In this document: in pieces, positions 22,197-44,505 of the stretch
How the letters are laid out: every line of letters starts with the position of its first letter
How positions within the stretch are numbered: position 1 is the stretch's first letter
Assembly (NCBI RefSeq): GCF_017743735.1
Contig: NZ_JAGHRO010000003.1
Span: forward strand, 1-64,000
Length of the DNA stretch: 64,000 bases
Source: Shimia sp. R9_2
Lineage (GTDB): Bacteria > Pseudomonadota > Alphaproteobacteria > Rhodobacterales > Rhodobacteraceae
Reading direction: 5' to 3'
Translations under genes and position numbers: made by a program
The notes under the pieces: model-generated
Seen by the model: the letters and a program-made list of their open reading frames with translations, nothing else
Told to the model about the DNA's origin: nothing
Databases searched by the model: none

Positions 22197-22994
22197 TCAA
22201 ACTCTCCCCATCGCGAAGCCCTTCGCGATGTAGTTGCGGACAAAATAGATCACGATGGCGCCGGGGATGATGGTGAGCGTGCCGGCAGCGGCCAGCAGGC
22301 CCAGCTCATAGCCCGCGCTTGAGGCGGTTTTGGTCATCGTTGCGGCGATTGGCTTGGCGGCCACAGCGGTCAGGGTTTTGGCCAGCAGCAGCTCCACCCA
22401 TGAGAACATGAAGCAGAAGAAGGCTGCCACACCCACACCGGCTTTGATCGTCGGGATGAAGATCGTTAGGAAGAAGCGCGGGAAGGAATAGCCGTCCACA
22501 TAGGCGGTTTCATCCAGTTCTTTTGGCACGCCGCCCATGAAGCCTTCCAAGATCCACACGGCCAGCGGGATGTTGAAGAGGCAGTGCGCCAGCGCCACGG
22601 CGAGGTGCGTATCAAACAGGCCAACAGCGGAGTAGAGCTGAAAGAAGGGCAGGGCGAACACGGCTGCCGGTGCCATGCGGTTTGTCAGCAGCCAGAAGAA
22701 CAGCTGTTTGTCGCCCAGAAAGCGATACCGGCTGAAGGCATAGGCTGCGGGCAGGGCCACGGCGATGGAGATCAGGGTGTTCAGAGAAACATAGATGATC
22801 GAGTTGATATAGCCCCAATACCAGGAGGGATCGGTGAAGATCGTGACATAGGCCTCCAGTGTGAAGGTCTGTGGGAAGAGCGAAAAGCCAGAGAGGATCT
22901 CATTTGTGGTTTTGAAGCTCATCGCCACCAGCCAGTAGATCGGCAGCATCAGGAAGAAGATGTAGAGGATTGGAACGAGTGATCTTTTACGCAT
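22197..22994 (-). CDS. glpQ: Glycerol-type ABC transporter permease (GlpQ-like, MalG family)
   Basis: A 265-residue permease of the carbohydrate MalG/UgpE type with six predicted spans. The coupling loop reads LDETAYVDGYSFPRFFLTIFIP. ATG 22994 has AGGAGAG upstream; the longer frame to 23048 overlaps the previous permease and is less likely. In GlpSTPQV systems, described in Rhizobium leguminosarum for glycerol uptake, two permeases pair with two different ATPases and a long binding protein, which is exactly the set here. The symbol is assigned by that architecture. Confidence 0.82.
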   Translation of the reverse strand: MRKRSLVPILYIFFLMLPIYWLVAMSFKTTNEILSGFSLFPQTFTLEAYVTIFTDPSWYWGYINSIIYVSLNTLISIAVALPAAYAFSRYRFLGDKQLFFWLLTNRMAPAAVFALPFFQLYSAVGLFDTHLAVALAHCLFNIPLAVWILEGFMGGVPKELDETAYVDGYSFPRFFLTIFIPTIKAGVGVAAFFCFMFSWVELLLAKTLTAVAAKPIAATMTKTASSAGYELGLLAAAGTLTIIPGAIVIYFVRNYIAKGFAMGRV

Positions 22995-23005
22995 GATCGC
23001 TCTCC

Positions 23006-23865
<860 letters not shown>

Positions 23866-23869
<4 letters not shown>

Positions 23870-24957
23870 GCTGCGCTCTCCTTTTGCGCGGGCGTGGTTG
23901 CGATCCAGCCGTCGGCGTAGAGCCGGGTGTGTTCTGGGGTGAAATGCAGATGCACCTCGTCGCCTTTTTGCGGCGCGGGGCCGTTTTGGATGGCGGCGAC
24001 CTTGTGGGTGCCGACGGTGGCTTCGACCACGGTGTGGCGGCCCACATCTGCCACGCGGGTGACGGTGGCAGGGATGCCGGTGTCAGCCAGACGCACAAAC
24101 TCGGGGCGGATGCCGATTTCGAGCTGACCGGAGGCGCCTGCATTGATCGGACCTTCCAGCGCGACCGCACGGCCCGCAAAGAGGGCTTGGCCGTCTTTCA
24201 CTTCGGCGGGCAGGACGTTCATGCCCGGGGAGCCGATGAAGTGGCCCACAAAGGTGTGTGCGGGGCGTTCAAACAGCTCTTCAGGCGTGCCGATCTGCAC
24301 CACTTCGCCGAGCTGCATCACCACCACCTGATCGGCAAAGGTGAGCGCTTCGGTCTGGTCGTGGGTCACATAGATCATGGTGTGGGAGACGCGCTGGTGC
24401 AGCTCTTTGAGCTTGGTGCGCAGTTTCCACTTCAGATGCGGGTCGATCACGGTGAGTGGTTCGTCAAACATGACGACATTCACGTCGTCGCGCACAAGGC
24501 CACGGCCCATGGAGATCTTTTGCTTGTTGTCCGGAGACAGGCCAGCCGCTTTGCGATCCAGCATGTCGGTGACTTCGAGCATCTCGGCAATCTCTGCCAC
24601 GCGCTTTTCGATGATCGCCGGGTCCACGCCACGGTTTTTGAGCGGGAAGGCAAGGTTTTCGCGCACGGTCATGGTGTCGTATATCACCGGGAACTGGAAC
24701 ACCTGTGCGATGTTGCGCTGATCCGGGGGCAGGGTGGTGACATCCTGACCGTCAAACAGGATCTGCCCCTCAGAGGGCACCAGAAGGCCGGAGATGATGT
24801 TCAGAAGCGTGGATTTGCCACAGCCGGAGGGGCCAAGCAGGGCATAGGCGCCGCCGTCCTGCCAATCCAGATCCACTTCTTTGAGGGCAAAGTCCTGTGG
24901 CCCCTTGGGATCGGGGTAGTAGCTGTGCCGGAGGTTTTTAAGTGTGATTTTCGCCAT
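23866..24957 (-). CDS. glpT: Glycerol-type ABC transporter ATPase (GlpT-like) with atypical signature motif
   Basis: A 363-residue ATPase with Walker A GPSGCGKST, Q-loop in QVFQFPVIYD and Walker B VVMFDEPL. The usual LSGGQ signature is replaced by LSPDNKQKISMGRG, so this subunit probably forms a degenerate ATP site in a heterodimer with the partner ATPase. The C-terminal half is the MalK-type TOBE regulatory domain. ATG 24957 was chosen; the frame to 25008 overlaps the partner. Its stop overlaps the permease start by four bases. Confidence 0.85.
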
Positions 24958-24968
24958 TCTGTCTGCCC

Positions 24969-26030
24969 TCAGCCGACGCGGGCGCCATCGGGCGCGAAGT
25001 AAAAACATGTGGTCGGATCAAGGAAGAAATCGTGTTCTTCGCCAATCCGGTAGGGGTGGGTGCCATGGGCGAGGCTGACCCAGCTGTTGCCGTCAAAATC
25101 AAAGTGGGCCGAGCTTTCAGAGCCTGAGAGTTCGGTCACGCCCACATGACCTTTCAGAGCCACATCGGAGCCGTCATGGGCATGGGGCAGCACGTGGTGC
25201 GGGCGCACGGCCATGATGTAGTCGCCATCTTTGAGACCTGCGGCCTCGCCTGTGGCGGTCCAGCTCAGCGCGCCAAGATGCATGGCGTCGCCGCGTTTGG
25301 TGACAGGTGCGTGGTTGATGGGCGGATCAGAGAAGATGCGGGCCGCCGTGAGAGAGGCCGGAGCGCGATAGATGTCAGCAGTGGTGCCGAATTGGGCGAC
25401 GTTGCCATCTACCATCAGTGCGGTTTCACCGCCCAGCAGCAGGGCCTCTTCGGGCTCGGATGTGGCATAGACCACCACAGCGCCGCGACCGGCAAAAAGC
25501 TCTGGCAGCTGCTCGCGCAGTTCTTCGCGCAGTTTGTAATCGAGGTTGGCCAGCGGTTCATCGAGAAACACCGCCCGGCTCTCCTTGGCAATCGCGCGCG
25601 CCAGCGCACAGCGCTGTTGCTGGCCACCGGAAAGCTCGTGCGGGCGACGGTGCAGCATGGGGCCAAGCTGGAGAATATCGGCGGCCTCAGCCACGCGGTC
25701 TTCGATCTCGGATTTGGCCATGCCCGCCACCTTCAGCGGGGAGGCGATGTTTTCAAACACCGTCATATGCGGGTAGTTCACGAAGAACTGGTGCACGAGG
25801 CTGATCTTGCGTTTCTGGGTGGTCAGCGCGGTGACGTCTTCGCCCTCCATGATGATCTGGCCGGAGGCGATCGGGTCAAGCCCGGCCATCATCTTGATCA
25901 GGGAGGTTTTGCCAGCGCCGGTTTCACCCAGCAGAACGTTGAAATGGCCTTTTCTCAACGTCAGGGTCGTTGGCTTGATGTGTGTCACACCCTGCACGAC
26001 CTTGGAAATGTTCTTTAGTTCAAGTGCCAT
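24969..26030 (-). CDS. glpS: Glycerol-type ABC transporter ATPase (GlpS-like)
   Basis: A 353-residue ATPase with Walker A GETGAGKTS, intact signature LSGGQQQRCALARA and Walker B AVFLDEPLANLD. The H-loop region reads VVVYATSEPEEAL, so the usual switch histidine (THD) is replaced by a serine, matching an asymmetric ATPase pair. A TOBE-like domain follows. It lies 144 bases behind the binding-protein gene, beyond a strong stem-loop, and 11 bases ahead of the second ATPase. Confidence 0.85.
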   Translation of the reverse strand: MALELKNISKVVQGVTHIKPTTLTLRKGHFNVLLGETGAGKTSLIKMMAGLDPIASGQIIMEGEDVTALTTQKRKISLVHQFFVNYPHMTVFENIASPLKVAGMAKSEIEDRVAEAADILQLGPMLHRRPHELSGGQQQRCALARAIAKESRAVFLDEPLANLDYKLREELREQLPELFAGRGAVVVYATSEPEEALLLGGETALMVDGNVAQFGTTADIYRAPASLTAARIFSDPPINHAPVTKRGDAMHLGALSWTATGEAAGLKDGDYIMAVRPHHVLPHAHDGSDVALKGHVGVTELSGSESSAHFDFDGNSWVSLAHGTHPYRIGEEHDFFLDPTTCFYFAPDGARVG

Positions 26031-26102
26031 GGATGCACCTTTGATCCTTGTGGAGCGTACCCAAACAGATGGGGCAATGGAGGAGGGGAGTGTTGGTAAG
26101 GT

Positions 26103-26131
26103 GGCCGGGGCTTGAAGGGTAAGCCCCGGCC
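26103..26131 (-). promoter_or_regulatory. Intercistronic stem-loop between binding protein and ATPase genes
   Basis: GGCCGGGGCTT (26103-26113) and AAGCCCCGGCC (26121-26131) are perfectly complementary around a seven-base loop, with no T-run. The position fits a structure that stabilises the binding-protein mRNA or lowers expression of the genes behind it. Confidence 0.65.
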
Positions 26132-26174
26132 GGTTTGACCATGAACACGGGGAGTGTCAGGTCAGGAGGAACAG

Positions 26175-27911
26175 TTAATTCTTGTTCCAGCGGGCAACCA
26201 GATCGTCATAGTTGACGGTCTCGCCCTGTGGTTTTTCGTTGTCCAGCTTTGGTTTTGCGCCGCCGTTGGCGAACCACCACTCTGCGTCTTTCTCCTCGTT
26301 GAGGCGAGGACCACAGCCGCCATAGACATTCTGGGCCTCATCCGCGCGCTGCATACGCGCCATGGTGATGTCCATTTCTTCGGCCAGACGGTCCATCGCT
26401 TCTTGTGGAGTGAAGGCGCCGGAGTTCACGTCACCGATCTGCTGCCACCAGATTTGGGCCAGCTTCGGATAGTCAGGCACGTTCACGCCGGTTGGGGACC
26501 ATGCCACGCGATCGGGAGAGCGGTAGAATTCTACCAGACCACCCAGTTTCGGGGCACGCTCGGTGAAGCTTTCGTGGTTCACAGAGCTGTCACGGGTGAA
26601 GGTCAGACCCACGTGAGATTTCTTCACGTCAACCGTTTTGGAGGTCACGAACTGAGCATAGAGCCATGCCGCCTGTGCGCGGTCCGCCGGGGTGGACTTC
26701 AGGAAGGTCCAGGAGCCAACGTCCTGATAGCCAACCTTCTGGCCTTTTTCCCAGTAAGGGCCGTGTGGGCTTGGAGCCATACGCCACAGTGGGTTGCCTT
26801 CGGCGTCCACGGTGTTGTTGCCTTCAGACTGTGGCTTCACCATGTCTGCGGTAAAGGCGGTGTACCAGAAGATCTGCTGGGCCACGTTACCTTGTGCCAG
26901 AGCTGGCAGAGACTGGTAGAAGTCGTAAGACGCCGCACCGGGAGGGGCATAGTTGCGCAGCCATTCGTCCCATTTGCGGATCGCGTAGACCGCTGCCGGG
27001 CCGTTTGCCGCACCACCGCGGGTGACGGATGCACCAGCCGGGTTACAGGAACCGGCTTCCATGCGGATGCCCCATTCGTCGATTGGCACACCGTTTGGTT
27101 CACCCTTGGAGCCTGCGCCCGCCATGGAGAGCCATGCGTCGGTCATACGCCAGCCAAGGTCTGGTGCACGTTTGCCGTAGTCCATGTGGCCGTAGATGTC
27201 GACGCCGTCGATGTTCTTCACGTCTTTGGAGAAGAATTCTGCGATGTCTTCATAGGCGGACCAGTTTACGGGCACGCCGAGGTCATAGCCGTATTTGGCT
27301 TTGAACTGCTCTTGCAGGTCTGCGCGGTCAAACCAGTCTTTGCGGAACCAGTAGAGGTTGGCAAACTGCTGGTCTGGCAGCTGATAGAGGTCACCATCCG
27401 GGCCGGTGGTGAACTGGGTGCCCATGAAGTCATCCAGATCGAGGGTGGGCGAGGTGGTCGCCGCCCAGTCACCCGCCATCATGTCGGTCAGGTTGTAGGC
27501 CAGTTGCAGGCGGGAGTGGGTGCCGATCAGGTCGGAGTCATTGACGTAGCCGTCATAGAGGTTCCGCTTGGTCTGCATCTGGGTTTGCACCGCCTGAACC
27601 ACTTCGCCTTCGCCGAGGATCTGGTGGTTGACTTTGATGCCGGTGATTTCTTCAAAAGCCTTGGTCAGAACTTCGGCTTCATAGCCGTGGGTCGGAATGC
27701 CTTCCGACAGCACGTTGATTTCCATGCCCGCGTAGGGCTGTGAAGCAGAGATGAACCACTGCATTTCGCTCATCTGCTCGTCTTTGCTCAGCGAAGACGG
27801 CTGGAATTCGGCATCGATCCAGCGCTTGGCTGCCGCTTCGTCGGCGTAAAGCGATTGTGTACCCGCAATCACGGCAGAAGCCGCAACGGCGGAGATAAGA
27901 TACTTCCGCAT
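26175..27911 (-). CDS. glpV: Periplasmic binding protein of the glycerol-type ABC transporter (GlpV-like)
   Basis: A 578-residue binding protein of the extracellular carbohydrate type (COG1653), much longer than the usual 420. A signal peptide covers residues 1-24 (SAVIAGTQSLYADE). Its length, and its place ahead of two distinct ATPases, two permeases and DUF2160, match GlpV of the rhizobial glycerol importer. No glpD, glpK or glpR lies in the window, so glycerol as ligand is inferred from the transporter type alone. Palindromic sites at 27983-28003 probably control the operon. Confidence 0.85.
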   Translation of the reverse strand: MRKYLISAVAASAVIAGTQSLYADEAAAKRWIDAEFQPSSLSKDEQMSEMQWFISASQPYAGMEINVLSEGIPTHGYEAEVLTKAFEEITGIKVNHQILGEGEVVQAVQTQMQTKRNLYDGYVNDSDLIGTHSRLQLAYNLTDMMAGDWAATTSPTLDLDDFMGTQFTTGPDGDLYQLPDQQFANLYWFRKDWFDRADLQEQFKAKYGYDLGVPVNWSAYEDIAEFFSKDVKNIDGVDIYGHMDYGKRAPDLGWRMTDAWLSMAGAGSKGEPNGVPIDEWGIRMEAGSCNPAGASVTRGGAANGPAAVYAIRKWDEWLRNYAPPGAASYDFYQSLPALAQGNVAQQIFWYTAFTADMVKPQSEGNNTVDAEGNPLWRMAPSPHGPYWEKGQKVGYQDVGSWTFLKSTPADRAQAAWLYAQFVTSKTVDVKKSHVGLTFTRDSSVNHESFTERAPKLGGLVEFYRSPDRVAWSPTGVNVPDYPKLAQIWWQQIGDVNSGAFTPQEAMDRLAEEMDITMARMQRADEAQNVYGGCGPRLNEEKDAEWWFANGGAKPKLDNEKPQGETVNYDDLVARWNKN

Positions 27912-28216: not shown

Positions 28217-28918
28217 ATGTCAGATTATCTGTTTGAGGCACCAGAGGTGTTTGCGCTCCCTGTTGCGGGCGAGGCGCTGAGCTATCCGGTGCGCCGTATC
28301 TTCTGCGTGGGGCGGAACTATGCGGCCCATGCGGCGGAGATGGGCGGGGAGGTCGACCGTGAGGCGCCGTGGTATTTCACCAAATCCGTGGCGCATGCGG
28401 TGTTGAGCGGGGCGGAGGTTGATTTCCCTCCGGGTACTGAGAATTACCATCACGAGATGGAGCTGGCCTTTGTGCTGGGGGCCTCGGTGTTTGAAGCCAC
28501 CGAGGCGGAGGCCGCAGCGGCGATCTACGCCTATGGCTGTGCGCTGGACATGACGCGGCGGGACCGGCAGCAGGACGGCAAGGACAACCGCAGGCCTTGG
28601 TCGCTTGGCAAAGATGTGGAAGACTCCGCTGTCTTTGCGCCGCTGACAAAAGCCGCAGAGTTTGGCGCACCAGCGGCGCAGGCGATCCATCTGGAGGTGG
28701 ACGGGGAGACCCGTCAGGCCGCCGATCTGAGCGAGATGGTCTGGTCGCCCACAGAGATCGTCATGCATCTGTCGCGCTATTATCATCTGACCGCCGGAGA
28801 TGTGATCCTGACAGGCACGCCCGCCGGTGTGGGGCCGGTGACAGCCGGGCAGGTGATCACAGGTGGGATCGACGGGCTCGCGCCGATCCGACTGGCGTTG
28901 AAAGTTACAAAAAGCTGA
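28217..28918 (+). CDS. Fumarylacetoacetate hydrolase (FAH) family protein
   Basis: A 233-residue FAH-fold enzyme; the family hydrolyses or decarboxylates beta-dicarbonyl acids such as fumarylpyruvate, acylpyruvates or oxaloacetate with a divalent metal. Family segments are present in order: IFCVGRNYAAHAAEMG, the metal-binding HHEMELAFVLG, CALDMTRRDRQ and GTPAGVGPV at the C-terminal end. ATG 28217 follows GGGAGGGA. It lies 70 bases ahead of the fused reductive dehalogenase on the same strand. That context suggests a ring-cleavage or acylpyruvate step after dehalogenation of an aromatic acid; this is inference. Confidence 0.87.
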   Translation: MSDYLFEAPEVFALPVAGEALSYPVRRIFCVGRNYAAHAAEMGGEVDREAPWYFTKSVAHAVLSGAEVDFPPGTENYHHEMELAFVLGASVFEATEAEAAAAIYAYGCALDMTRRDRQQDGKDNRRPWSLGKDVEDSAVFAPLTKAAEFGAPAAQAIHLEVDGETRQAADLSEMVWSPTEIVMHLSRYYHLTAGDVILTGTPAGVGPVTAGQVITGGIDGLAPIRLALKVTKS

Positions 28919-28988: not shown

Positions 28989-31900
28989 ATGGGGATCAAG
29001 TTTTTTTCGGATAAGGCGCGGCCGGTGCATCTTGGCCCCTATCCGCTGGAGCGATTGGTGCGCGGCGCGATGCCTGAGGTGGCGGGGATGCCACGGGATC
29101 GCGATCTGAGCTTTCACCGGCCGGAGCGGCCAGAGAGCATCGTGAACGCCATGGGCGAGTTTCAGGCGATGCTGGATGCCTTGCGGGACGGGCTGGTCAA
29201 TCCGGTGCAGTCCGGCATTCCGGATGATCCAATTGAGCGCTCCAACCATCTGAAATCTTTTGGCTATTTCAACGATGCCTCGATGGTGGGTGTGGGGCCT
29301 CTGCCCGCAGCGGCGCGGCTGTCCACCCCACGGCGCAATCCGGATATTGACCGGTTGTCTGAGGCGCTGCGCACGCGGCAGATCAAGTCTTTGGCGGCGG
29401 GGATCGATGTCATTATGGCGGATCTCAAGGACAGTATGGAAGCGCCGCCCAGCAGCATTGAGACCCATGAGAACGCGATTGTGTTTCTGATCGAGCACCA
29501 TCGTGATCCGGAGCGCGGCGAGCCGGGCAGCGACTGGATTTTGGATGCACAAGACCATCGCGCCTGTCTGCGGGCCACCGAAGTGGCGGTGGTGATTGCC
29601 AACTACATCCGGCTTCTGGGCTTTGATGCAAAGGCGCACACCGCGACCTCCACCGATGTGGATCTGGGGCGTGTTGGCGTGGCGGCGGGCCTACTGGCGC
29701 TGGAGAATGGTGAGCTGATCGCACCCTGGCTGGGCACCCGTTATGGGCTGGCGGTGATCACAACGGAAATGGCGCTGGCCCATGACGGGGCGCTGGCCCC
29801 GATGCGCGCGCAGCCCTGGGCGCAAACCCAAGGGCCTGCGTGGTGGTTGGGCACCGGATCAGCGAAATCCGCGCTGAACCAAGACCCCTATCGCAACCGC
29901 GACTACGTTAAAGGGGCGCATCCGTTTGAACGGCTGAAGCGGGTGGAGAGCCCGACCACCTATATTGATGAGGCCAATGTGGCGCGTGTGCCCAAGCGGG
30001 CGGATATGTTTGCGCGGGCCCAGTTCGGGGACATGGGCAAGACCCTGCAGGATTCCGCGAAGGGCGGCTATTATGTGCGCAAATCGGCGCCGAGTTTTGC
30101 CCAAAGACGCGCGCTTGGGGCCTTTGTACTGCTGCAGGATGGCGCGAGTGCTGAGGTCAAAAAGCCAACAGATTCAGATCGTAACGCGGCGAACCTGAAA
30201 GCGGCGACCTATTTCCTTGGGGTTGATGCGGTGGGCCTGAGTCGATGCCCGGAATGGGCGTGGTATTCGCATGACGCGACCGGAACGCCAATTGTGCCGA
30301 GCCATGACAACGCCATCAGTATGATCATTGATCAGGGCTATGAGACCATGGAAGGGGCCTCTGGCGATGACTGGATCAGCGTGGCGCAATCCATGCGGGC
30401 CTATCTTCGGTTCTCCCTGCTGGGCGGCGTGATCGCGCAGCAAATCCGCAATTTGGGGTATAAGGCCAAGGCCCATACGGTGATGGATGGTGAGGTGCTG
30501 CAACCTCCGCTGTTGCTGCTTTCAGGACTTGGCGAGGTGAGCCGGATCGGTGAGGTGATCCTGAACCCCTATCTGGGGCCGCGACTGAAATCCGGTGCGG
30601 TCACCACCGATATGCCGATGAGCCATGATCTGCCAATTGATTTTGGCCTGCAGAACTTCTGTGAGAACTGCAACAAATGCGCGCGGGAGTGTCCCTCTGG
30701 TGCGATCACGGCTGGCCCGAAGCTGATGTTCAACGGCTATGAGATTTGGAAGTCGGACAGCCAGAAATGTGCCACCTACCGGATCACCACGCCGGGTGGT
30801 TCGATGTGCGGGCGCTGTATGAAGACCTGCCCGTGGAACCTCGAAGGGCTGTTTTCCGAAGCGCCGTTCCGCTGGGCGGCAAGCAATTTCCCAAGCCTTG
30901 CCAAGCCTTTGGCCAAGCTAGATGATGCGGTCGGCAATGGCGGGCTGAACGACGTCAAGAAATGGTGGTGGGATATTGAGCTGGAAGAGGATGGCGCATA
31001 CCGACCGTCCAAACATCCGCTCAACCGCCGCGATCTGCAGAAAGATCTGGACCTGAAATATGAAGATCAGACGCTGGCGGTCTATCCGGCGGCGTTGGCG
31101 CCCCATCCGTGGCCGTATCCTTTCCCGATGGATCGGGAAGCCGGGATCAAAGCCTATGAGGCGATGGTTTCCGCCGATGAGTACAAGCTGCGGCTAGCGG
31201 CGGGGGATACCTCGGTGATTGACCGCTATGTGGTGCCGGATGCGGCGGATGCGCCGGTGGTGCAGGTGCAGATTTCTCAGGTCGAACCGATGACGGCGGA
31301 TGTGACCAAATATGAGTTTCAGTCGCTGGATGGCGCGCCGCTGCCGGAATGGACGGCGGGCGGGCATCTGGATGTGCTGGTCGCGCCGGAGTTTCTGCGC
31401 CAGTACAGCATGTCGGGGGATCCCAAAGATCGCTCCAAATACCAGATTGGCGTGTTGCGCGAAGACGAAGGGCGCGGGGGCAGTGCGCTTTTGCACCGGA
31501 TTTTCCGCGAAGGGCGTAAGGTTTTTGTCTCCAAACCGATCAACCACTTCGAGCTGATTGAGGAGGCGACAAAGAGCTTCCTGATGGGCGGCGGCATCGG
31601 GATCACGCCGATGATTGCTTTTGCGCACCGTTTGCATGATCTGGGCCGTGACTTTGCGCTGCACTACTCGGCAAGCCGGGAGGAGGGCGCGGGCTATATC
31701 GACGATCTGAAGGCGATGCCCTGGGCCGACAAAGTGGTGTTCCATTTTTCTGACAAAGGCACGCGTGCGGATCTGGACGCGATCCTTGGCGGGTATCAGG
31801 AGGGCTGGCATGTCTATACCTGCGGGCCGGACCGTTACATGGAAGGGGTCATGGCGGCGGCAGAGCGGCAGGGCTTCCCAGAAGAGGCGCGGCATCTGGA

Positions 31901-32201
31901 ATACTTCAACGTGCCGGAGCAGCCGGAGTATGAGAATTTCGACTTTAAATTAAAGTTGAAGGATGGGCGGGAACTGTTTGTTCCAGCTGATAAAATCGCG
32001 ACTGATGTGCTGCTTGAAAACGGTGTGCATGTGGATGTGAAATGCGCCGACGGGATTTGCGGTGTGTGTAAATGCGGGCTGATTTCTGGGGATGTGGAGC
32101 ACCGGGATTTTGTGCTCTCCAACAAGCAGCGGGAGACTGCGGTGATCCTGTGTCAGAGCCGGGCGAAAGAGGCGGGCGGCGTCGTGGAGATTGATCTCTG
32201 A
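28989..32201 (+). CDS. Self-sufficient reductive dehalogenase (RdhA fused to a ferredoxin-reductase module)
   Basis: A 1070-residue cytoplasmic enzyme; no Tat motif or signal peptide. Residues about 1-550 are the cobalamin-binding dehalogenase region, which contains two related halves (about 160-270 and 440-550). Two [4Fe-4S] motifs follow: CX2CX2CX3CP at Cys558/561/564/568 and CX12CX2CX3CP at Cys594/607/610/614. Tyr528 and Lys588 are spaced like the catalytic Tyr/Lys reported for NpRdhA of Nitratireductor. The C-terminal 310 residues are a phthalate-dioxygenase-reductase-like module: flavin motif RQYS (804-807), NAD(P) motif GGGIGITPM (867-875) and a plant-type [2Fe-2S] set Cys1019/1024/1027/1055. 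Aerobic RdhAs such as BhbA (bromoxynil) share this fusion and use NADPH directly. The substrate is probably a halogenated phenol; that is inference. Confidence 0.9.
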   Translation: MGIKFFSDKARPVHLGPYPLERLVRGAMPEVAGMPRDRDLSFHRPERPESIVNAMGEFQAMLDALRDGLVNPVQSGIPDDPIERSNHLKSFGYFNDASMVGVGPLPAAARLSTPRRNPDIDRLSEALRTRQIKSLAAGIDVIMADLKDSMEAPPSSIETHENAIVFLIEHHRDPERGEPGSDWILDAQDHRACLRATEVAVVIANYIRLLGFDAKAHTATSTDVDLGRVGVAAGLLALENGELIAPWLGTRYGLAVITTEMALAHDGALAPMRAQPWAQTQGPAWWLGTGSAKSALNQDPYRNRDYVKGAHPFERLKRVESPTTYIDEANVARVPKRADMFARAQFGDMGKTLQDSAKGGYYVRKSAPSFAQRRALGAFVLLQDGASAEVKKPTDSDRNAANLKAATYFLGVDAVGLSRCPEWAWYSHDATGTPIVPSHDNAISMIIDQGYETMEGASGDDWISVAQSMRAYLRFSLLGGVIAQQIRNLGYKAKAHTVMDGEVLQPPLLLLSGLGEVSRIGEVILNPYLGPRLKSGAVTTDMPMSHDLPIDFGLQNFCENCNKCARECPSGAITAGPKLMFNGYEIWKSDSQKCATYRITTPGGSMCGRCMKTCPWNLEGLFSEAPFRWAASNFPSLAKPLAKLDDAVGNGGLNDVKKWWWDIELEEDGAYRPSKHPLNRRDLQKDLDLKYEDQTLAVYPAALAPHPWPYPFPMDREAGIKAYEAMVSADEYKLRLAAGDTSVIDRYVVPDAADAPVVQVQISQVEPMTADVTKYEFQSLDGAPLPEWTAGGHLDVLVAPEFLRQYSMSGDPKDRSKYQIGVLREDEGRGGSALLHRIFREGRKVFVSKPINHFELIEEATKSFLMGGGIGITPMIAFAHRLHDLGRDFALHYSASREEGAGYIDDLKAMPWADKVVFHFSDKGTRADLDAILGGYQEGWHVYTCGPDRYMEGVMAAAERQGFPEEARHLEYFNVPEQPEYENFDFKLKLKDGRELFVPADKIATDVLLENGVHVDVKCADGICGVCKCGLISGDVEHRDFVLSNKQRETAVILCQSRAKEAGGVVEIDL

Positions 32202-32255: not shown

Positions 32256-33413
32256 TTAAGCGGCGACCAAGCGCTGGGTTTCGCCTGCGATGATGCCTTC
32301 TTCATCTGTCGCGATGACATGGGCGGCGAGGCGGCTGGTTTTGGTGGTGATGCGGCTCGCGCCGGAGGTGTTGGCCTCGGCATCCAGATCCGCGCCAAGC
32401 CATGCGCAGCCCTGCAGGATACGCGCACGTATGGGGGCTGCGTTCTCGCCAATGCCGCCGGTGAAGACAATGGCGTCAAGCCCGCCAAGGGTGGCGGCCA
32501 GCGCGCCGATCTTCTTGCAGGCCTGATAGACAAAGAGCTCCACCGCCTCAGCCGCTGCTGGGCTGTCCGAGGCCAAGAGATCGCGCATGTCAGAGCTGAG
32601 ACCGGAGACCCCGAAGAGGCCGGATTTGGTGCCCAGCGTGGCTTCGATTTCGGCCACGCTCATGCCGCGGTCGCGCATCATGTGAAAGATCACGCCGGGG
32701 TCGAGCTCGCCGCAGCGGCGGCCCATCACCAGCCCATCAAGGGCGGTGTATCCCATTGTGGTCGCGACACTTTTCATATCCTGCATGGCGCACATGGAGG
32801 CGCCGTTGCCTAGATGGGCGACAATCACCTTGCCGTTGGGCGTGTCCAGATGTTGCGGCAGTTGCGTGGAGATGTAGTGATAGCTGAGCCCGTGAAAGCC
32901 ATAGCGCAGCACACCGTCGTCAGACAGCGCACGCGGGATCGCAAAGAGCTGTGCAATGCGGGGCTGGGTGCGGTGGAAGGCGGTGTCAAAGCAGGCCACC
33001 TGCGGGATGTTGGGCCAGCGACGGGCGACGGCCTCGATGCCTGCGAGGTTGTGGGGCTGATGCCCCGGAGCCAGCGGCGCCAGCGTGCGCAGTTTTTCGA
33101 TCACCTCGTCGGTCACACGTGCGGGGGCGGCAAACTCTTGACCGCCGTGCACGACCCTGTGGCCCGCGCCAATGATGTTGAAGCCCTTTTCCAGCCCCAT
33201 GATATGGGCCAGCAGCCAGTCGAGAATTTCGGCGTGGGTCGCGTCTTCGGCGACAGGCAGATCAATCTCGCTTGCGCCGCCGTGATATTGCGGGCCCATG
33301 CCGATGCGATCGACCTGACCGGAGAGCTGCACCGCAAGCTCGGTGTTATAGACCGCGTATTTGATCGAGGAGGAGCCTGCGTTCAGAACGAGATAGGCGT
33401 CTTGGGCGCTCAC
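32256..33413 (-). CDS. ackA: Acetate kinase
   Basis: A 385-residue acetate/propionate kinase of the ASKHA fold: acetyl phosphate + ADP to acetate + ATP. The opening LVLNAGSSSIKYAV binds phosphate/nucleotide, GHRVVHGG carries the active arginine region, and HLGNGAS and FTGGIGENA are the other family signatures. The ATG overlaps the stop of the phosphotransacetylase gene by four bases. Together they convert acyl-CoA to acid with ATP gain. It converges with the dehalogenase gene. Confidence 0.93.
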   Translation of the reverse strand: MSAQDAYLVLNAGSSSIKYAVYNTELAVQLSGQVDRIGMGPQYHGGASEIDLPVAEDATHAEILDWLLAHIMGLEKGFNIIGAGHRVVHGGQEFAAPARVTDEVIEKLRTLAPLAPGHQPHNLAGIEAVARRWPNIPQVACFDTAFHRTQPRIAQLFAIPRALSDDGVLRYGFHGLSYHYISTQLPQHLDTPNGKVIVAHLGNGASMCAMQDMKSVATTMGYTALDGLVMGRRCGELDPGVIFHMMRDRGMSVAEIEATLGTKSGLFGVSGLSSDMRDLLASDSPAAAEAVELFVYQACKKIGALAATLGGLDAIVFTGGIGENAAPIRARILQGCAWLGADLDAEANTSGASRITTKTSRLAAHVIATDEEGIIAGETQRLVAA

Positions 33414-34354
33414 ATCAGATCCTTTCCAAGGCTGTGGTGCACCAAAAGCTGCGCCAGGGCGGCGGATACGAGGCGGGAGAGCGTGCCGTCCGCGCGGGAG
33501 GTCAGCATGATTGGCACGCGTGCGCCCAGAACGATGCCCGCGCTGTCGGCCCCTGCGAGATACATCAGCTGTTTGGCGATCATGTTGCCGGCCTCAAGAT
33601 CCGGTGCGACGAGAATGTCGGCGTCTCCCGGGACCTCCGATTTGATGCCTTTGGCGTCTGCGGCGCGGCGGGAGATGGCGTTGTCAAACGCTAGCGGGCC
33701 GTCAAGCACGCCGCCTGTGATCTGACCACGATCCGCCATTTTGCAGAGCGCGGCGGCCTCAACGGTGGAGGGGATCTTGGGGTAGATGGTTTCCAGAGCC
33801 GACAGGATGGCCACTTTGGGGGTGTCCACGCCGATGGCTTGTGCCAGTCCGATGGCGTTTTGCACGATGTCGGCTTTGGCCATGAGATCGGGGAAGATGT
33901 TGATCGCGGCGTCGGTGATCATCAGCGGCTTGGGGTAGGCGGGCACATCGAGCACGAAGACATGGCTCATGCGGCGCTCGGTGCGCAGGCCGTGGGTTTT
34001 GTGCACAACGGCGCTCATGACTTCGTCGGTGTGCAGCGCGCCCTTCATGATCGCCTGCGCGCGACCTTCGCGGACAAGGCGCACCGCTGTTTCGGCGCTG
34101 TCATGGCTGTGGGGGGCGTCAATGATCTCGCAAGCGGAGATATCAAGCGCATGCTCTTTGGCTGCGGCTTTGATGCGGTCCTCTGGGCCCACCAGAAGCG
34201 GGGTGATCAGGCCTTTTTCCAGAGCGGCCAAGGCGCCCTCCAGAGAGGCTGCGTCAACGGGGTGAACAACAGCGGTTACAATGGGGTCCAGAGGCGCGGT
34301 GGCCTCCAGCATATCGTCAAAGCTGTTCTTGTGATGGGGGGCTGAAAGATCCAC
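33410..34354 (-). CDS. pta: Phosphate acetyl/butyryltransferase
   Basis: A 314-residue member of the phosphate acetyl/butaryl transferase family (PF01515), which makes acyl phosphate from acyl-CoA. Typical segments are ITDAAINIFPDLMAKADIVQNA, PKVAILSALE and DILVAPDLEAGNM. It is the short form without the DRTGG-type N-terminal domains, and in length and sequence resembles phosphate butyryltransferases, so either acetyl or a longer acyl group is possible. It is translationally coupled to ackA. Confidence 0.88.
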   Translation of the reverse strand: MDLSAPHHKNSFDDMLEATAPLDPIVTAVVHPVDAASLEGALAALEKGLITPLLVGPEDRIKAAAKEHALDISACEIIDAPHSHDSAETAVRLVREGRAQAIMKGALHTDEVMSAVVHKTHGLRTERRMSHVFVLDVPAYPKPLMITDAAINIFPDLMAKADIVQNAIGLAQAIGVDTPKVAILSALETIYPKIPSTVEAAALCKMADRGQITGGVLDGPLAFDNAISRRAADAKGIKSEVPGDADILVAPDLEAGNMIAKQLMYLAGADSAGIVLGARVPIMLTSRADGTLSRLVSAALAQLLVHHSLGKDLM

Positions 34355-39593: not shown

Positions 39594-40787
39594 CTACGGC
39601 TCGCGAAACGCCTCTTTGCTTTTGTAAAGCGGCTTTAGCAGGTAGCGCAGGATGGTTTTGGAGCCGGTGTGCAACTCCACTGTGGCGCGCATGCCGGGGC
39701 GGATTTCTATGGCTTTCTGGCGCTCGGTCAGGGCGTCTGTGTTGACGGTGACGGTGACGCGGTAAAACGGCGGGGCAGACGGGTCGCGCTCGTCTTCAAA
39801 AGTGTCCGCAGAAATGAAATCGACCTTGCCTTTGAGCGTGCCATAGATGGTGTAGTCATAGGCGGTGAGTTTGATGGAGGCGTCCTGGCCGGGCTCGACA
39901 TTGGCGATGTTTTCGGGGCGCACGCGGGCCTCAACAAAGAGCTCTTCGCCCAAGGGGATGATTTCAAAGATTTCGGCACCGGGGCGGACAACGCCACCGA
40001 TGGTGGTCACGGCGAGGTTGTTGACGATGCCACGCATGGGGGCGGTGATCACGGTGCGGGAGAGCTGATCCTGTGCGAGGCGCATTTCCTGCTGCAGGGA
40101 GGTGATTTCCTTGAGCGTCTCTGAGTATTCCTCGGCCAGTACCAGCTCGGCCTGCGTGAGGATGTCCATGTAGCGGATCTCGGCCTCTGAGGCTTTTTCG
40201 CGGGCCTTGTTGACCTCCAGCAGCGCGACGAACTCTTTCTTGTAGAGGTTCTCCATGTTGGAGAGCTCTTCCTGAGCCTGTTCAAGCTGGGTGAAGGCCC
40301 CTTCGCGGCGGCTGTCGATATCAGTCTGACGGGCGGCCAGAAGCGCCTGCTCGGAGGACAGGATGCGCGGGGCGCGGGTGGCCAGCTCTTCGGGCACGTT
40401 GAATTCGAATTTGCCTTCGATTTCGGCCTCAAGACGCAGGCGGCGCAGCTCCAATGCGTCGATCTGGTCCTGCAGATCGTCAAAGGCGGAGCGGAAGCGG
40501 GTGTCTGAGAGCGTGGCCAGCACCTGACCGGCCTCCACAAGGTCGCCCTGTTTGACAGCGAGGTCTGCGAGGATGCCGCCTTCGAGGTTTTGCACCGATT
40601 GGGAGCGGGAGGAGGAGACAACTTCGCCGTCCGCGCGCACGATCTCATCGACCCAAGCAAAGGCAGCCCAGAGCACAAACAGGCCCATGGCGATGGCGAT
40701 CAGACGAATGGTGAGGCGGGAGGCGCGGAGCTGGTCATCGAGCCCGCTGTCATAGCCTGCGTCGTTGTCATATCCGGTGGCGCTCAT
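39594..40787 (-). CDS. Type I secretion membrane-fusion protein (HlyD/LapC-like)
   Basis: A 397-residue periplasmic adaptor that links the ABC exporter to the outer-membrane TolC-like channel. It has one N-terminal span (LTIRLIAIAMGLFVLWAAFAW), a lipoyl half-site with VVSSSRSQSVQNLEGGILADL, a long coiled coil (about residues 95-250) and the C-terminal beta-barrel region. The ATG at 40787 overlaps the exporter stop (ATGA). With the genes upstream it makes a full LapE/LapB/LapC-type system. Confidence 0.9.
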   Translation of the reverse strand: MSATGYDNDAGYDSGLDDQLRASRLTIRLIAIAMGLFVLWAAFAWVDEIVRADGEVVSSSRSQSVQNLEGGILADLAVKQGDLVEAGQVLATLSDTRFRSAFDDLQDQIDALELRRLRLEAEIEGKFEFNVPEELATRAPRILSSEQALLAARQTDIDSRREGAFTQLEQAQEELSNMENLYKKEFVALLEVNKAREKASEAEIRYMDILTQAELVLAEEYSETLKEITSLQQEMRLAQDQLSRTVITAPMRGIVNNLAVTTIGGVVRPGAEIFEIIPLGEELFVEARVRPENIANVEPGQDASIKLTAYDYTIYGTLKGKVDFISADTFEDERDPSAPPFYRVTVTVNTDALTERQKAIEIRPGMRATVELHTGSKTILRYLLKPLYKSKEAFREP

Positions 40788-43093
40788 GTGCGGTCTCCGG
40801 CGGCGAGATGGGCGAGGACCTGCTCGCGGGGGCCATCCACCACGAGGCGACCGTTTTGCAGGATCAGCGTGCGTGTGGAGAGCGACAGGATTGGTGTGCG
40901 GTGCGTGGCGATCAGGGCAGTGCGGCCGTTGAGCCATGTGGACAGGCGGCTGACCAGCGTGCGCTCCAGCGTTTGATCCAGCGCGGCGGTGGGTTCATCC
41001 AGAAGCACGATCTGCGGGTTCTGCAGCCAGAGGCGGGCCCAGCCGATGGATTGGCGCTGACCGATGGAGAGGCCTTCGCCGCCGTCGCGGATTTGCAGGT
41101 CGAGGCCCTGCGGGTGGTTGCGCAGGAAGGGGCCGAGGCCGGCGAAGTCCAAGGCTTCCATCAGGCGGTCATCATCGCGCTCAAGCTGAGTCAGGTTGAG
41201 GTTGTCCCGCAGACTGCCTGCAAAGAGGCGCACGTCCTGAGACAGGTAGCCGATGTTGCGGCGCAGGTCGCGCTGGTCGATCTGGCTCATATCGGTGCCA
41301 TCCAGCAGCAGGCGGCCTTTGGTCGGGCCGTAAAGGCCTGCCATCAGCTTCAGCAGCGTGGATTTGCCGGAGCCGTTGGCGCCCAGAATGGTGACGCGCT
41401 GACCGGGTTTGATGACCACGCCGGGCACATCAAGTGTCGGCGCGCCGTCTTCGTCATAGGCAAAGGACAGCTCGCGCAGTTCAAACTGGCCGGAGAGCTT
41501 TTCGCGGCGGAGATATTTGCGTTCGCCGTCTTTCTCCTGCTCAGAAAGTGCAATGGCATCAAGGCTTTCCAGTGCGCCCTTCACGTTGGACCAGCGCGCA
41601 AGCGTGCCTGCAAACTGGGTGAGCGGCGCAAGGGTGCGCGAGGTCAGGATGCCGGTTGCGATGATGGTGCCGACGGTGAATTCACCGGCAAACACCAGAT
41701 AGGTGCCGATCACGACGGTGGCGATATAGGTGGTTTGCTGCACGCCTTGGGACCAGTAGGTCAGGGCGGAGCTCAGGCGGCGCTGTTCGGCGGAAGAGTA
41801 AGAGGACACCGCGTTGAGTTCGTCCCAAAGACGCAGCACACGGTCTTCGCCGCGTTGGGTCTTGACGGTGTCAAGCTCGGTGATGACCTCCTGCAGCAAG
41901 CGGCCGACCTTGGCGGAGGCGCCTTGGGTTTCGCGGGACAGCGCGATCATGCGCTTTTGCAGGACATAGGCCGGAAGCACCATCAGGACGCCGCCGAGCA
42001 TCAGCACCCAAACCAGATTGCCCGCGATGGAGGCGACGAGGGCCAGAAAGATCACGATGAAAGGCATGTCCGCCAGCACGGAGATCGTGGTGGAGGTGAA
42101 GAAATCACGCACAGCACCAAAGTCGCGCATGGCGGCAAAGAGGCCGGAGGGCGGCAGGGGGCGGCGGTCTGAGCGCATGCCAAGTAGGCGTTTCATCAGG
42201 CGGTGCTGGATCGAGAGCTCCATGCGGCGGCCAGCGGCGTCGCTCATCTTGGCGCGCGCAAGCTTGAGGAGACCCTCAAGGCAGATGGCGAAGATCGCGC
42301 CAATGGCGAGCACCCAGAGCGTGGCCTGACTTTGGTGCGGGATTACGCGGTCATAGACTTGCAGGGAAAACAGGGCGACCGCGACGGCGAGCAGGTTGGC
42401 CACCAGAGAGCCCAGTATGATCTCGCCCATGTGGCGGCGGTATTTGGTGAACTCACCCCAGAACCAGTGGCCGGACATGCCGTCCGCGATTTGCGGGATG
42501 TGCCGCTCCGCCAGTTGGCGCAGGGAAACTTTGGCGCGCAGTGCGGTGCCCGAGAAGAACGGCGTAAATTCTGCAACCGGCACCTCGGCGCGGTTATCAG
42601 GCTGGCTGTCGTCATAGACGGTGAGCGTCTCGTCTTCTTGGGAGAGCACCAACACGGCCTGACCGTTGGTCATCATGGCGATGGCGGGCCAGGCGGCGGG
42701 GCCGGGCGCAAGCTTGCTGTGGACTTTGGGCTCGACACCGGCCTGTGCCAGCGCGTTGGCGAGCGCTTTCACGGAGACATCGCCGGGGGCGGAGGTCCAC
42801 ATGTGCTCGGCCACATCGGTGACGGGTACCTCAGAGCCGTTGAGCGCGGCCAGCGTGGAGATCAGCGTGGCGCGGTGCTGGATGCGGTTGGCGGTGGCCT
42901 CCACCAGATCATGGATCGCGTCGCCGGGTTTTGCGGCCTCAGCGGTTGGGGCCGATTGGGCCGCAGAAATCGTGCTGACCTTGGGCGGGCGGGGCTGGTT
43001 GGCCTGACCGGCCCGATTGGCGGGCTGCGTCGGTTTGATGGAGGCGATAGAGAGCACCGTTGGCGCCTTGCCTTTGGGGGTATCCGCGGTCAA
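40784..43093 (-). CDS. Type I secretion ABC exporter (LapB-like)
   Basis: A 769-residue inner-membrane ABC exporter. A proline-rich N-terminal tail (1-55) leads into a C39-peptidase-like domain (about 60-200) in which no catalytic cysteine is seen, as in RTX/adhesin exporters that bind an unprocessed substrate. Membrane spans cover about 215-490, and the ATPase has Walker A GANGSGKST (571-579), signature LSIGQRQSIGWAR and Walker B IVLLDEPTAALD. The start overlaps the TolC-like gene stop and the end overlaps the adaptor start, so all three are coupled. The likely cargo is the adhesin at 44506-47613. Confidence 0.9.
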   Translation of the reverse strand: MTADTPKGKAPTVLSIASIKPTQPANRAGQANQPRPPKVSTISAAQSAPTAEAAKPGDAIHDLVEATANRIQHRATLISTLAALNGSEVPVTDVAEHMWTSAPGDVSVKALANALAQAGVEPKVHSKLAPGPAAWPAIAMMTNGQAVLVLSQEDETLTVYDDSQPDNRAEVPVAEFTPFFSGTALRAKVSLRQLAERHIPQIADGMSGHWFWGEFTKYRRHMGEIILGSLVANLLAVAVALFSLQVYDRVIPHQSQATLWVLAIGAIFAICLEGLLKLARAKMSDAAGRRMELSIQHRLMKRLLGMRSDRRPLPPSGLFAAMRDFGAVRDFFTSTTISVLADMPFIVIFLALVASIAGNLVWVLMLGGVLMVLPAYVLQKRMIALSRETQGASAKVGRLLQEVITELDTVKTQRGEDRVLRLWDELNAVSSYSSAEQRRLSSALTYWSQGVQQTTYIATVVIGTYLVFAGEFTVGTIIATGILTSRTLAPLTQFAGTLARWSNVKGALESLDAIALSEQEKDGERKYLRREKLSGQFELRELSFAYDEDGAPTLDVPGVVIKPGQRVTILGANGSGKSTLLKLMAGLYGPTKGRLLLDGTDMSQIDQRDLRRNIGYLSQDVRLFAGSLRDNLNLTQLERDDDRLMEALDFAGLGPFLRNHPQGLDLQIRDGGEGLSIGQRQSIGWARLWLQNPQIVLLDEPTAALDQTLERTLVSRLSTWLNGRTALIATHRTPILSLSTRTLILQNGRLVVDGPREQVLAHLAAGDRT

Positions 43094-44439
43094 ATCGCGT
43101 CTCCATCCGCCAGCAGCCCGAGATCGCGGGCCAGCTCCAGCTGCGCAAGAAGGCGGTCATATTTGGCGTCAACGCGGTCCAGATCGCGCAGCACGGATTG
43201 TTCGTAGACGTCCACGACCTCCAGCACCGAGCGTTGACCGGCACGGAACTGCGCCTCAAAAAGCTTGTAAGTTTTGCGGCCTTCCTGAGCGAGGTTTTGT
43301 GCCTCGGCTTCCTGACGGGAGAGACTCTGAATATTGCTTTCCAGACGCTTGCGGAGACGGTCGCCGTCTTCGCGGGCTTCATCCACCTGACGGGCGGCGA
43401 TGTCTTTGGAGGCTTCGATGGCTTTGAGGCGCGCACCAGTGCCCAGACCCAAGCCCACGTCATTGCCGACATTCAAGCTGCCGCTGTTGCCATCGGTGGT
43501 AAGGCTGGCCCCGGCGGTCAGGCCCGGAAGTTGGCGGGCGCGCTCAACCGTGGCCAGCGCGACGGCGCGGTCGGCTTCGGCGCGGGCTTTGACGACCTCA
43601 AGCGGTTCCACCGCCGGGTAGGCCTGATTGGGCAAGGGGGCGGCGGGGGTGAGCGCAAAGCGCGTGCCGGTCATGGCCTGCAATTCGCTGATTGCGGTGG
43701 CGGCGTCTTCGCGGGCGGTGTCGTTGCGGGTGTCCAGGGTCTGGATCTTGGTGCGCACCATGCGCAGGTCGCCTTTGTTAGAGACACCACCGTCGATGCG
43801 ACCCTGCACGATACGTTCAAAATGTTTGAGCTGTTTAAGACCACCTGCGCCGACTTTGGCCCGTTCCTGACCGCGCAGCCCTTTGATGTAGAGTGCCAGC
43901 GCGGTGAAGCTGCGCTCATTGAGATCCTGAGACAGGGTGACAGCGGCGACTTCGACATCGGCGGCGGCATAGGCGCGCTCGGCCTTTTTGCGGCCATGGT
44001 CATAGAGCACCTGTTCCAGCACCAGACCGGCAATCACATCACCCAGAGAGGTCAGCGAGATTTCCGGGCCAATCGTTGGAAGCCAGTTTTTGTCTTCAGC
44101 CTCGGCACGCAGGCGGGCGGTTTGCAGCTCGGCCTCGGCAGCGCGGCGCGAGGAGGCGAGGGCCACATCAGAAACTTCGCTCAAGGCGCTGTCGGCAGGC
44201 AGCACAGAGCGGCGCGCCAGCAATGTGTTGAGAATTTCGCTTTCGGCTTTGGCTTCATCCTGAGCAAAGCTGCTGCGTTTGCTGACCTCCGGTGTGGCGG
44301 CCGAAGCGGCCTCAGAGGCAGGCTTTGGTTTCAGGAAAGACTCGGCTGAGTCTAGGTGTGGGACCGAGAACATGCAGCCGCTCAGAAGCGTGGCCCCAAG
44401 GAGCAGGGGCAGGGACTTATGATGCGTGCGGCAGGGCAT
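43090..44439 (-). CDS. TolC-family outer-membrane channel (LapE-like)
   Basis: A 449-residue outer-membrane efflux protein. The signal peptide ends with a lipobox LLSGC, so it is probably a lipoprotein. The two repeated TolC halves are rich in alanine coiled-coil helices, with RMVRTKIQTLDTRNDTAREDA in the first and DEAREDGDRLRKRLESNIQSLS plus FRAGQRSVLEVVDVYEQSV in the second. The latter motif is the family's conserved FxxGxxxLLDVLDAQ-like segment. It is 67 bases behind the adhesin gene and overlaps the exporter start by four bases. Confidence 0.9.
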   Translation of the reverse strand: MPCRTHHKSLPLLLGATLLSGCMFSVPHLDSAESFLKPKPASEAASAATPEVSKRSSFAQDEAKAESEILNTLLARRSVLPADSALSEVSDVALASSRRAAEAELQTARLRAEAEDKNWLPTIGPEISLTSLGDVIAGLVLEQVLYDHGRKKAERAYAAADVEVAAVTLSQDLNERSFTALALYIKGLRGQERAKVGAGGLKQLKHFERIVQGRIDGGVSNKGDLRMVRTKIQTLDTRNDTAREDAATAISELQAMTGTRFALTPAAPLPNQAYPAVEPLEVVKARAEADRAVALATVERARQLPGLTAGASLTTDGNSGSLNVGNDVGLGLGTGARLKAIEASKDIAARQVDEAREDGDRLRKRLESNIQSLSRQEAEAQNLAQEGRKTYKLFEAQFRAGQRSVLEVVDVYEQSVLRDLDRVDAKYDRLLAQLELARDLGLLADGDAI

Positions 44440-44473
44440 GTCGCGTGCGTATAGCCTTGAGCTGGAGGGAGAG

Positions 44474-44495
44474 AAAGGGCGGCAGAAAGCCGCCC
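44474..44495 (-). terminator. Hairpin between the adhesin and the secretion genes
   Basis: On the minus strand GGGCGGC-TTTCT-GCCGCCC is followed by TTTCTCTC. It is a modest terminator or an attenuator that would let adhesin transcripts exceed those of the exporter genes. Confidence 0.55.
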
Positions 44496-44505
44496 CCGGG
44501 ATCTG

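Follow-up and report, generated by a model that had tools for sequence, protein, structure and literature searches.

A Putative Self-Sufficient Reductive Dehalogenase of the BhbA/JtRdhA Subfamily in the Marine Bacterium Shimia sp. R9_2

Introduction

The stretch of DNA considered here comprises positions 1 to 64,000 of the forward strand of contig NZ_JAGHRO010000003.1 (RefSeq assembly GCF_017743735.1, Shimia sp. R9_2), and we refer to the whole of these 64,000 nucleotides as the window. At 28989-32201 (+) it carries rdhA, a gene whose 1070-residue product joins a reductive dehalogenase (RdhA) to a reductase of its own. On the combined strength of sequence, predicted structure and analogy with studied relatives, we consider it very probable that this protein belongs to the BhbA/JtRdhA subfamily of self-sufficient, catabolic reductive dehalogenases, and that it is cytoplasmic, depends on vitamin B12 and NAD(P)H, and would debrominate or deiodinate ortho-halophenolic compounds aerobically, ahead of their ordinary catabolism. 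A sequence-only reading of the window had already taken the protein, placed in a marine alphaproteobacterium, for a cobalamin-dependent reductive dehalogenase that is self-sufficient and does not serve respiration, a proposal which sequence, structure and kin all support. The analysis itself establishes the order of the domains, the cofactor ligands, the catalytic residues, the predicted fold, the kin, the selection on the gene and the presence of cobN, pobA and pcaH in the genome, whereas activity, substrate, loading with cofactors, tolerance of oxygen, location in the cell and the coupling to a catabolic pathway are inferred.

Domain Architecture and Predicted Structure

The gene is a single intact frame of 1070 codons, with an ATG start preceded by GGGGAG and with no internal stops. 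The presence of two modules in one chain, as proposed earlier, follows from three matches on the same protein, namely NCBIfam TIGR02486 (RDH; 196.4 bits, cut-off 160.35), the reductive dehalogenase NpRdhA (4ras/6zxu; phmmer E ~1e-156, the 4ras match falling into two stretches at query residues 4-105 and 159-736), and the phthalate dioxygenase reductase 2pia (phmmer E 1e-50, query residues 758-1066); the Pfam models Fer4 and Fer2 also exceed their cut-offs. As far as sequence and model can speak to it, the protein is thus confirmed as a complete catabolic RdhA module followed by a phthalate-dioxygenase-reductase (PDOR) module, and its parts are the following:

28989..32201, + strand: rdhA-PDOR fusion gene, 1070 amino acids (frame, NCBIfam, phmmer, AlphaFold2 model).
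28989..29978, + strand: N-terminal vestigial cobalamin-binding-like repeat, residues ~1-330 (boundary approximate), aligned to the corresponding part of NpRdhA.
29331..29453, + strand: fusion-specific insert, residues 115-155 (alignment A2, described below).
29979..30653, + strand: catalytic cobalamin domain, residues ~331-555 (boundaries approximate), with F341, S468, M469, Y472 and K534.
30654..30842, + strand: two [4Fe-4S] motifs, C558-C568 and C594-C614, with R598 sitting among the cysteines of the second.
31245..31913, + strand: flavin/NAD(P) ferredoxin-reductase domain, residues 753-975, with RQYS at 804-807 (NCBIfam, phmmer, model).
31944..32198, + strand: C-terminal [2Fe-2S] ferredoxin domain, residues 986-1070, with C1019/1024/1027/1055 (Pfam Fer2 over its cut-off).

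The flavin of residues 753-975 is probably flavin mononucleotide (FMN), as in JtRdhA and in the 2pia family. An AlphaFold2 model of the fusion, built from 33 aligned sequences, has a mean predicted local distance difference test score (pLDDT) of 84.6 and a predicted template modeling score (pTM) of 0.86. Residues 1-738 of this model superpose on NpRdhA (6zxx_C) with Z 40.0 and a root-mean-square deviation (rmsd) of 2.6, at 41% identity over 684 residues, and residues 753-1070 on 2pia with Z 28.9 over 308 residues and an rmsd of 12.2, the last of which probably reflects relative domain placement; the structural alignment rows (VIA-align) derive from Foldseek's own list. The NpRdhA and 2pia matches jointly span nearly the whole chain, by sequence and by model alike. 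The cobalamin-binding domain is duplicated, with a vestigial and a functional copy, since 684 of the 696 residues of 6zxx_C align with residues 1-738; the duplication is described for NpRdhA in PMC10463259, where the N-terminal copy is termed vestigial. The fold and the NpRdhA alignment, together with the alignment to BhbA (49% identity), bear out the family placement proposed from the sequence.

The same observations bear on whether the enzyme could instead be respiratory, conserving energy from dehalogenation, since its catalytic core is homologous to that of PceA (4uqu, E 2e-28). A Tat (twin-arginine translocation) motif is missing, because no RR pair occurs within residues 1-60, and there is no space for an adjacent rdhB, the flanking genes being an FAA hydrolase 70 bp upstream and, on the opposite strand, an acetate kinase 54 bp downstream; both absences had been noted earlier and both stand. 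With a fused NAD(P)H reductase, a duplicated core domain and the catabolic NpRdhA as the closest solved relative, we reject the respiratory alternative as having a negligible probability.

Cluster Ligands, Catalytic Residues and Insert

Two alignments were used: A1, with 33 rows (the window protein and 32 chosen full-length fusions), and A2, with 38 rows (34 fusions and four non-fusion homologues). All 12 cluster cysteines named by the sequence-only reading (C558/561/564/568, C594/607/610/614 and C1019/1024/1027/1055) are indeed cysteines, and every one of the 33 rows of A1 keeps them, as it does the catalytic residues Y472, K534 and R598. Residues 280-620, whose alignment with NpRdhA had been set beforehand as a test of the proposal, do align with it: the NpRdhA residues F291, S422, M423, Y426, K488 and R552, which bind and protonate 3,5-dibromo-4-hydroxybenzoate (PMC7565698), correspond to F341, S468, M469, Y472, K534 and R598, all six invariant across A2 (38/38). 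The two proteins have the same residue in 262 of the 602 pairs aligned as far as query residue 667.

These residues also decide how much weight a third interpretation deserves, in which the protein is a Class III B12 enzyme lacking dehalogenase activity and performing an epoxyqueuosine-reductase-like or other reduction. A match to TIGR00276 (QueG) points that way, although at 24.4 bits it lies far under the cut-off of 200, and S468, M469, Y472, K534 and R598 are common to NpRdhA and BhbA, both of them reported debrominases. QueG itself is rejected on that score, and we hold the wider interpretation to be very unlikely.

An insert at residues 115-155 is present in all 34 fusions and in none of the four non-fusion homologues of A2, and hence tracks the fused reductase; an insert specific to fusions is reported for JtRdhA and related fusions (PMC10463259), and the two would be the same.

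Proposed Mechanism and the Guidance of JtRdhA

In the mechanism that we propose, NAD(P)H would reduce the flavin held in residues 753-975 (FMN in JtRdhA, PMC10463259), from which single electrons would travel by way of the C-terminal [2Fe-2S] cluster and both [4Fe-4S] clusters to cob(II)alamin in its base-off state. An ortho-halophenol would bind with its halogen on the cobalt and its phenolate oxygen held by K534, R598 and S468, and Y472 would donate a proton to the ring carbon when the halide, bromide or iodide, leaves. Natural marine bromophenolic acids or phenols would probably in this way be debrominated or deiodinated in air, and the ring could enter ordinary catabolism, for example by the conversion of 4-hydroxybenzoate to protocatechuate.

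By analogy, the published activity of JtRdhA is the best guide to the window enzyme. JtRdhA is driven by NADPH, is active in air, and removes bromine and iodine from ortho-halophenols, acting efficiently on 3,5-dibromo-4-hydroxybenzoate and 3-bromo-4-hydroxyphenylacetate, whereas the chlorinated phenols tested with it inhibited the enzyme and were not turned over (PMC10463259). It follows that the window enzyme should not be credited with dechlorination: the earlier suggestion that it dehalogenates natural bromo- or chlorophenols keeps its bromophenol half as the expected role and becomes doubtful in its chlorophenol half. The earlier listing of BhbA and NpRdhA as the characterized fusions likewise needs revision, for work on fusions has dealt with BhbA and, more thoroughly, with JtRdhA, which had been missed, and NpRdhA is described as having no reductase (PMC10463259).

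Distribution and Selection

The fusion gene is widespread, of an already recognized kind, and ordinary for its clade. Full-length copies occur in 21 of the 24 other Shimia genomes searched, the remainder being G005 and G020, with no match at E 1e-40, and G022, which has the reductase part only. The same-genus genome G024 has its copy at a place assigned to Shimia marina CECT 7688, so that kinship, too, puts the window's genome in Shimia. Full-length copies at 54-80% identity are carried by 35 more genomes from the family (194 genomes in the search). A scan of genome contigs found 352 stretches encoding a relative; the best 80 were retained, which overlap with the genomes just counted and each match at least query residues 4-1069. 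When the class is sampled evenly (289 genomes), the full-length fusion is found in six genomes, that of the window included and two of them in another family, and 16 others match in the RdhA part only. In the plasmid collection, eight of 946 matching records contain the greater part of the query at a single place, and pBHB, which encodes BhbA, is one of the eight. The copy on the Ruegeria TM1040 megaplasmid (70.6% identity) is publicly labeled a "reductive dehalogenase domain-containing protein". On a plasmid of Yoonia sp. SS1-5 (L119:8944-12211) an unannotated homologue is split over two frames, and may be broken or misread.

The literature agrees with this picture. Homologues of bhbA are said to be widespread in the Roseobacter clade (Chen et al. 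2013, via PMC13101508), an alphaproteobacterial rdhA cluster corresponding to bhbA is named in PMC3939436, and the gene tree of PMC10463259 (its Figure 1) includes R. pomeroyi AAV93904. Among the literature matches listed, no title or abstract opening described a characterized Shimia enzyme.

The gene is evidently maintained under strong purifying selection. The ratio of nonsynonymous to synonymous substitution rates (dN/dS) against the same-genus orthologues at loci L085, L001, L003, L006 and L007 is 0.044, 0.067, 0.061, 0.066 and 0.061, respectively; these are the five valid codon comparisons, with dS from 0.63 to 1.84 and the larger values rough. A comparison with the Ruegeria gene at L012 was dropped, the sequences being of equal length and out of register. 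By part, the N-terminal vestigial repeat is the least constrained (pN/pS 0.08-0.22 over the same five comparisons), and either the catalytic or the reductase part is the most constrained.

A putative B12-dependent reductive debrominase of a characterized type is thus almost always present in an aerobic marine genus and is common in its family, and halogenated phenols can therefore probably lose their halogens reductively in oxic seawater, with no need for organohalide respiration.

Pocket Types and the Natural Substrate

A new detail is that the fusions sort into clade-specific pocket types. At query positions 340/357/362/465/498 in A2, the window protein reads M/A/Y/V/V, a type shared, with minor changes in a few rows, by most roseobacter fusions and by an Aminobacter plasmid copy. 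BhbA and the Nitratireductor OM-1 enzyme read F/S/S/S/A, the four non-fusions F/gap/F/G/N, and three deeper fusions (L128-L130) F/A/Y/V/V, and two others (L131 and L134) have C at position 465; the placement of positions 357-363 is less certain, as the alignment to NpRdhA has a gap close by. Two separate groups in the tree are the BhbA pair and the deep trio, and the fork that parts the pair from the trio and the remainder has a support of only 80/67. One Shimia genome (G017) encodes a second full-length fusion (L135, G017:C2:45000-58000), which is 64% identical and has the pocket M/S/F/V/N, beside a copy at 84%.

Because the pocket residues M340, Y362, V465 and V498 differ from those of BhbA, the natural substrate of the window enzyme may differ from that of BhbA. 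A narrower proposal within the same enzyme class, compatible with the assignment given above, is that this pocket selects a bromo- or iodophenolic compound other than the 4-hydroxybenzoate type, such as a simple bromophenol or a compound derived from bromotyrosine or hydroxycinnamate, and that the enzyme may serve to detoxify such compounds instead of supporting growth. It draws on the way in which pocket type follows clade, the F/S/S/S/A enzymes lying near ring-cleavage dioxygenases, and on the variation of linked genes by lineage, with acyl-CoA synthetase and amidohydrolase at L008, a molybdenum hydroxylase at Ruegeria-type loci and an FAA hydrolase in Shimia. It has to contend with the efficient turnover of both 4-hydroxy-substituted acids by JtRdhA (PMC10463259), with the retention of all six substrate-binding residues of NpRdhA, and with the uncertain placement of the positions near the alignment gap, and we judge its chances to fall just short of even.

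A broader synthesis, which we offer tentatively and are somewhat inclined to doubt, would make the Roseobacter fusions a functional subclass of their own, with a shared hydrophobic pocket (M340/Y362/V465/V498) for a natural bromo- or iodophenolic that is not the BhbA substrate. Different genera would plug the debrominase into different aromatic pathways, the Ruegeria-type copies doing so beside a molybdenum hydroxylase nearest 4-hydroxybenzoyl-CoA reductase, and aerobic reductive debromination would belong permanently to the marine bromine cycle, as a function encoded almost in the core genome. The pocket subtypes, taken with the lineage-specific neighbors, offer concrete and testable guesses about natural substrates.

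Genomic Setting

The gene immediately upstream of rdhA is the following:

28217..28918, + strand: FAA-hydrolase family gene (acylpyruvase/fumarylpyruvate-hydrolase-like), 70 bp upstream of rdhA, with ATG at 28217 and GGGAGGG before it.

Its best solved match is the putative fumarylpyruvate hydrolase 4maq (E 9e-57), and it is a possible operon partner of rdhA. We surveyed neighbors at 87 loci (the window, 80 genome loci and six plasmid loci) with a simple gene caller and a 350-bp chain rule. The FAA hydrolase is the same-strand upstream neighbor in nine of these, and the link is weak because all nine mapped are of the window's genus and S. marina (L001) has no such gene beside rdhA. A gentisate pathway as the meaning of this hydrolase is unsupported, gentisate 1,2-dioxygenase not having been found in a search with weak controls. 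Convergent with rdhA, an acetate/propionate kinase and a phosphate acetyl/butyryltransferase occupy 32256-34354; they lie near rdhA in 14 and 13 of the 87 loci, respectively, and the 13 kinase loci that were mapped all belong to the window's genus.

Other lineages have other neighbors. In Ruegeria-type loci, rdhA is followed on its own strand by three molybdenum-hydroxylase genes (for the FAD subunit in 32, the [2Fe-2S] subunit in 31 and the molybdenum subunit in 30 of the 87 loci). The large subunit of this trio is nearest 4-hydroxybenzoyl-CoA reductase 1rm6 (E 1e-93), with TIGR03194 at 462.6 bits, below its cut-off of 994.55; at L012:13308-16932 and equivalent places the trio mostly has a divergent LysR-like gene upstream. 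Ring-cleavage dioxygenase genes lie close to BhbA and to the Nitratireductor OM-1 enzyme, and the Oricola fusion (L061) is near a 4-oxalomesaconate tautomerase gene (over cut-off). In S. aestuarii (L008), rdhA stands behind an acyl-CoA synthetase (general NCBIfam model below cut-off) and an amidohydrolase (no NCBIfam match), genes that may belong to a hydroxycinnamate pathway. No neighbor common to the whole subfamily, and no conserved operon partner, was found among the 87 loci by the simple gene caller, the neighbors changing with the genus.

Contig C1 of this organism holds pobA (655.1 bits, cut-off 538.7) together with pcaH, which scores 354.8 bits (cut-off 296.4) and has beside it a weaker second match that may be pcaG; because the two genes occur together, the organism can probably use 4-hydroxybenzoate. 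The genome also carries cobN, over its cut-off and not linked to rdhA.

Two further sets of genes in the window are recorded for completeness. An ATP-binding cassette (ABC) transporter at 22197-27911 (-), with a 578-residue binding-protein-like product, two ATPases and two permeases, has a layout that may resemble that of GlpV-type glycerol transporters. At 39594-47613, a 1035-residue repetitive protein, probably a secreted adhesin to judge by its sequence, stands beside what reads as a type I secretion-like set (HlyD-like, ABC and TolC-like).

Points That Weigh against the Assignment

Several observations count against the assignment of the window protein as a catabolic debrominase of the BhbA/JtRdhA subfamily. 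The Pfam profile PF13486 (Dehalogenase) gave no match to the fusion protein up to E 1, and none in its own genome (0/1), yet none of 14 controls gave a signal either (0/14). Among six variable pocket positions, the window protein differs from BhbA at five and from NpRdhA at all six, and the likeness to JtRdhA is drawn from published description. In the genomic context, the neighbors of rdhA vary between genera; rdhA is on contig C19, unlinked to pobA and pcaH on C1; and the search for gentisate 1,2-dioxygenase in the window's genome found nothing, a weak absence, since the model signaled in four of 14 controls and in none over cut-off. The search for B12 synthesis in that genome covered cobN alone, whose match falls into two pieces, one of them with a flagged TGA.

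Comparison with Known Systems

One close described counterpart is JtRdhA of Jhaorihella thermophila (WP_104007082), which resembles the window enzyme in being an RdhA-PDOR fusion from a marine host, with no Tat signal, and in having the insert and the catalytic Tyr/Lys/Arg (PMC10463259). BhbA (Comamonas sp. 7D-2, L114) is likewise a full-length fusion, 49% identical over residues 3-1070 and with the same cysteines and catalytic residues, but it is borne on plasmid pBHB beside protocatechuate 4,5-dioxygenase genes and has the F/S/S/S/A pocket. NpRdhA of Nitratireductor pacificus (4ras, 6zxu) shares the RdhA module and differs in being a chain of ~704 residues without the reductase module (PMC10463259 for its fusion status) and without most of query residues 106-158, as well as at every variable pocket position. 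Ros_A3X954 of Roseobacter sp. MED193 is also marine, has no Tat signal, and debrominates 2,6-dibromophenol, but is a separate reductive dehalogenase, reported to be oxygen-sensitive, whose motif positions at 283-345 suggest another architecture (PMC13101508). The Roseobacter-clade homologues of Shimia, Ruegeria and other genera are full-length and 54-95% identical to the window protein, with neighbors specific to each lineage.

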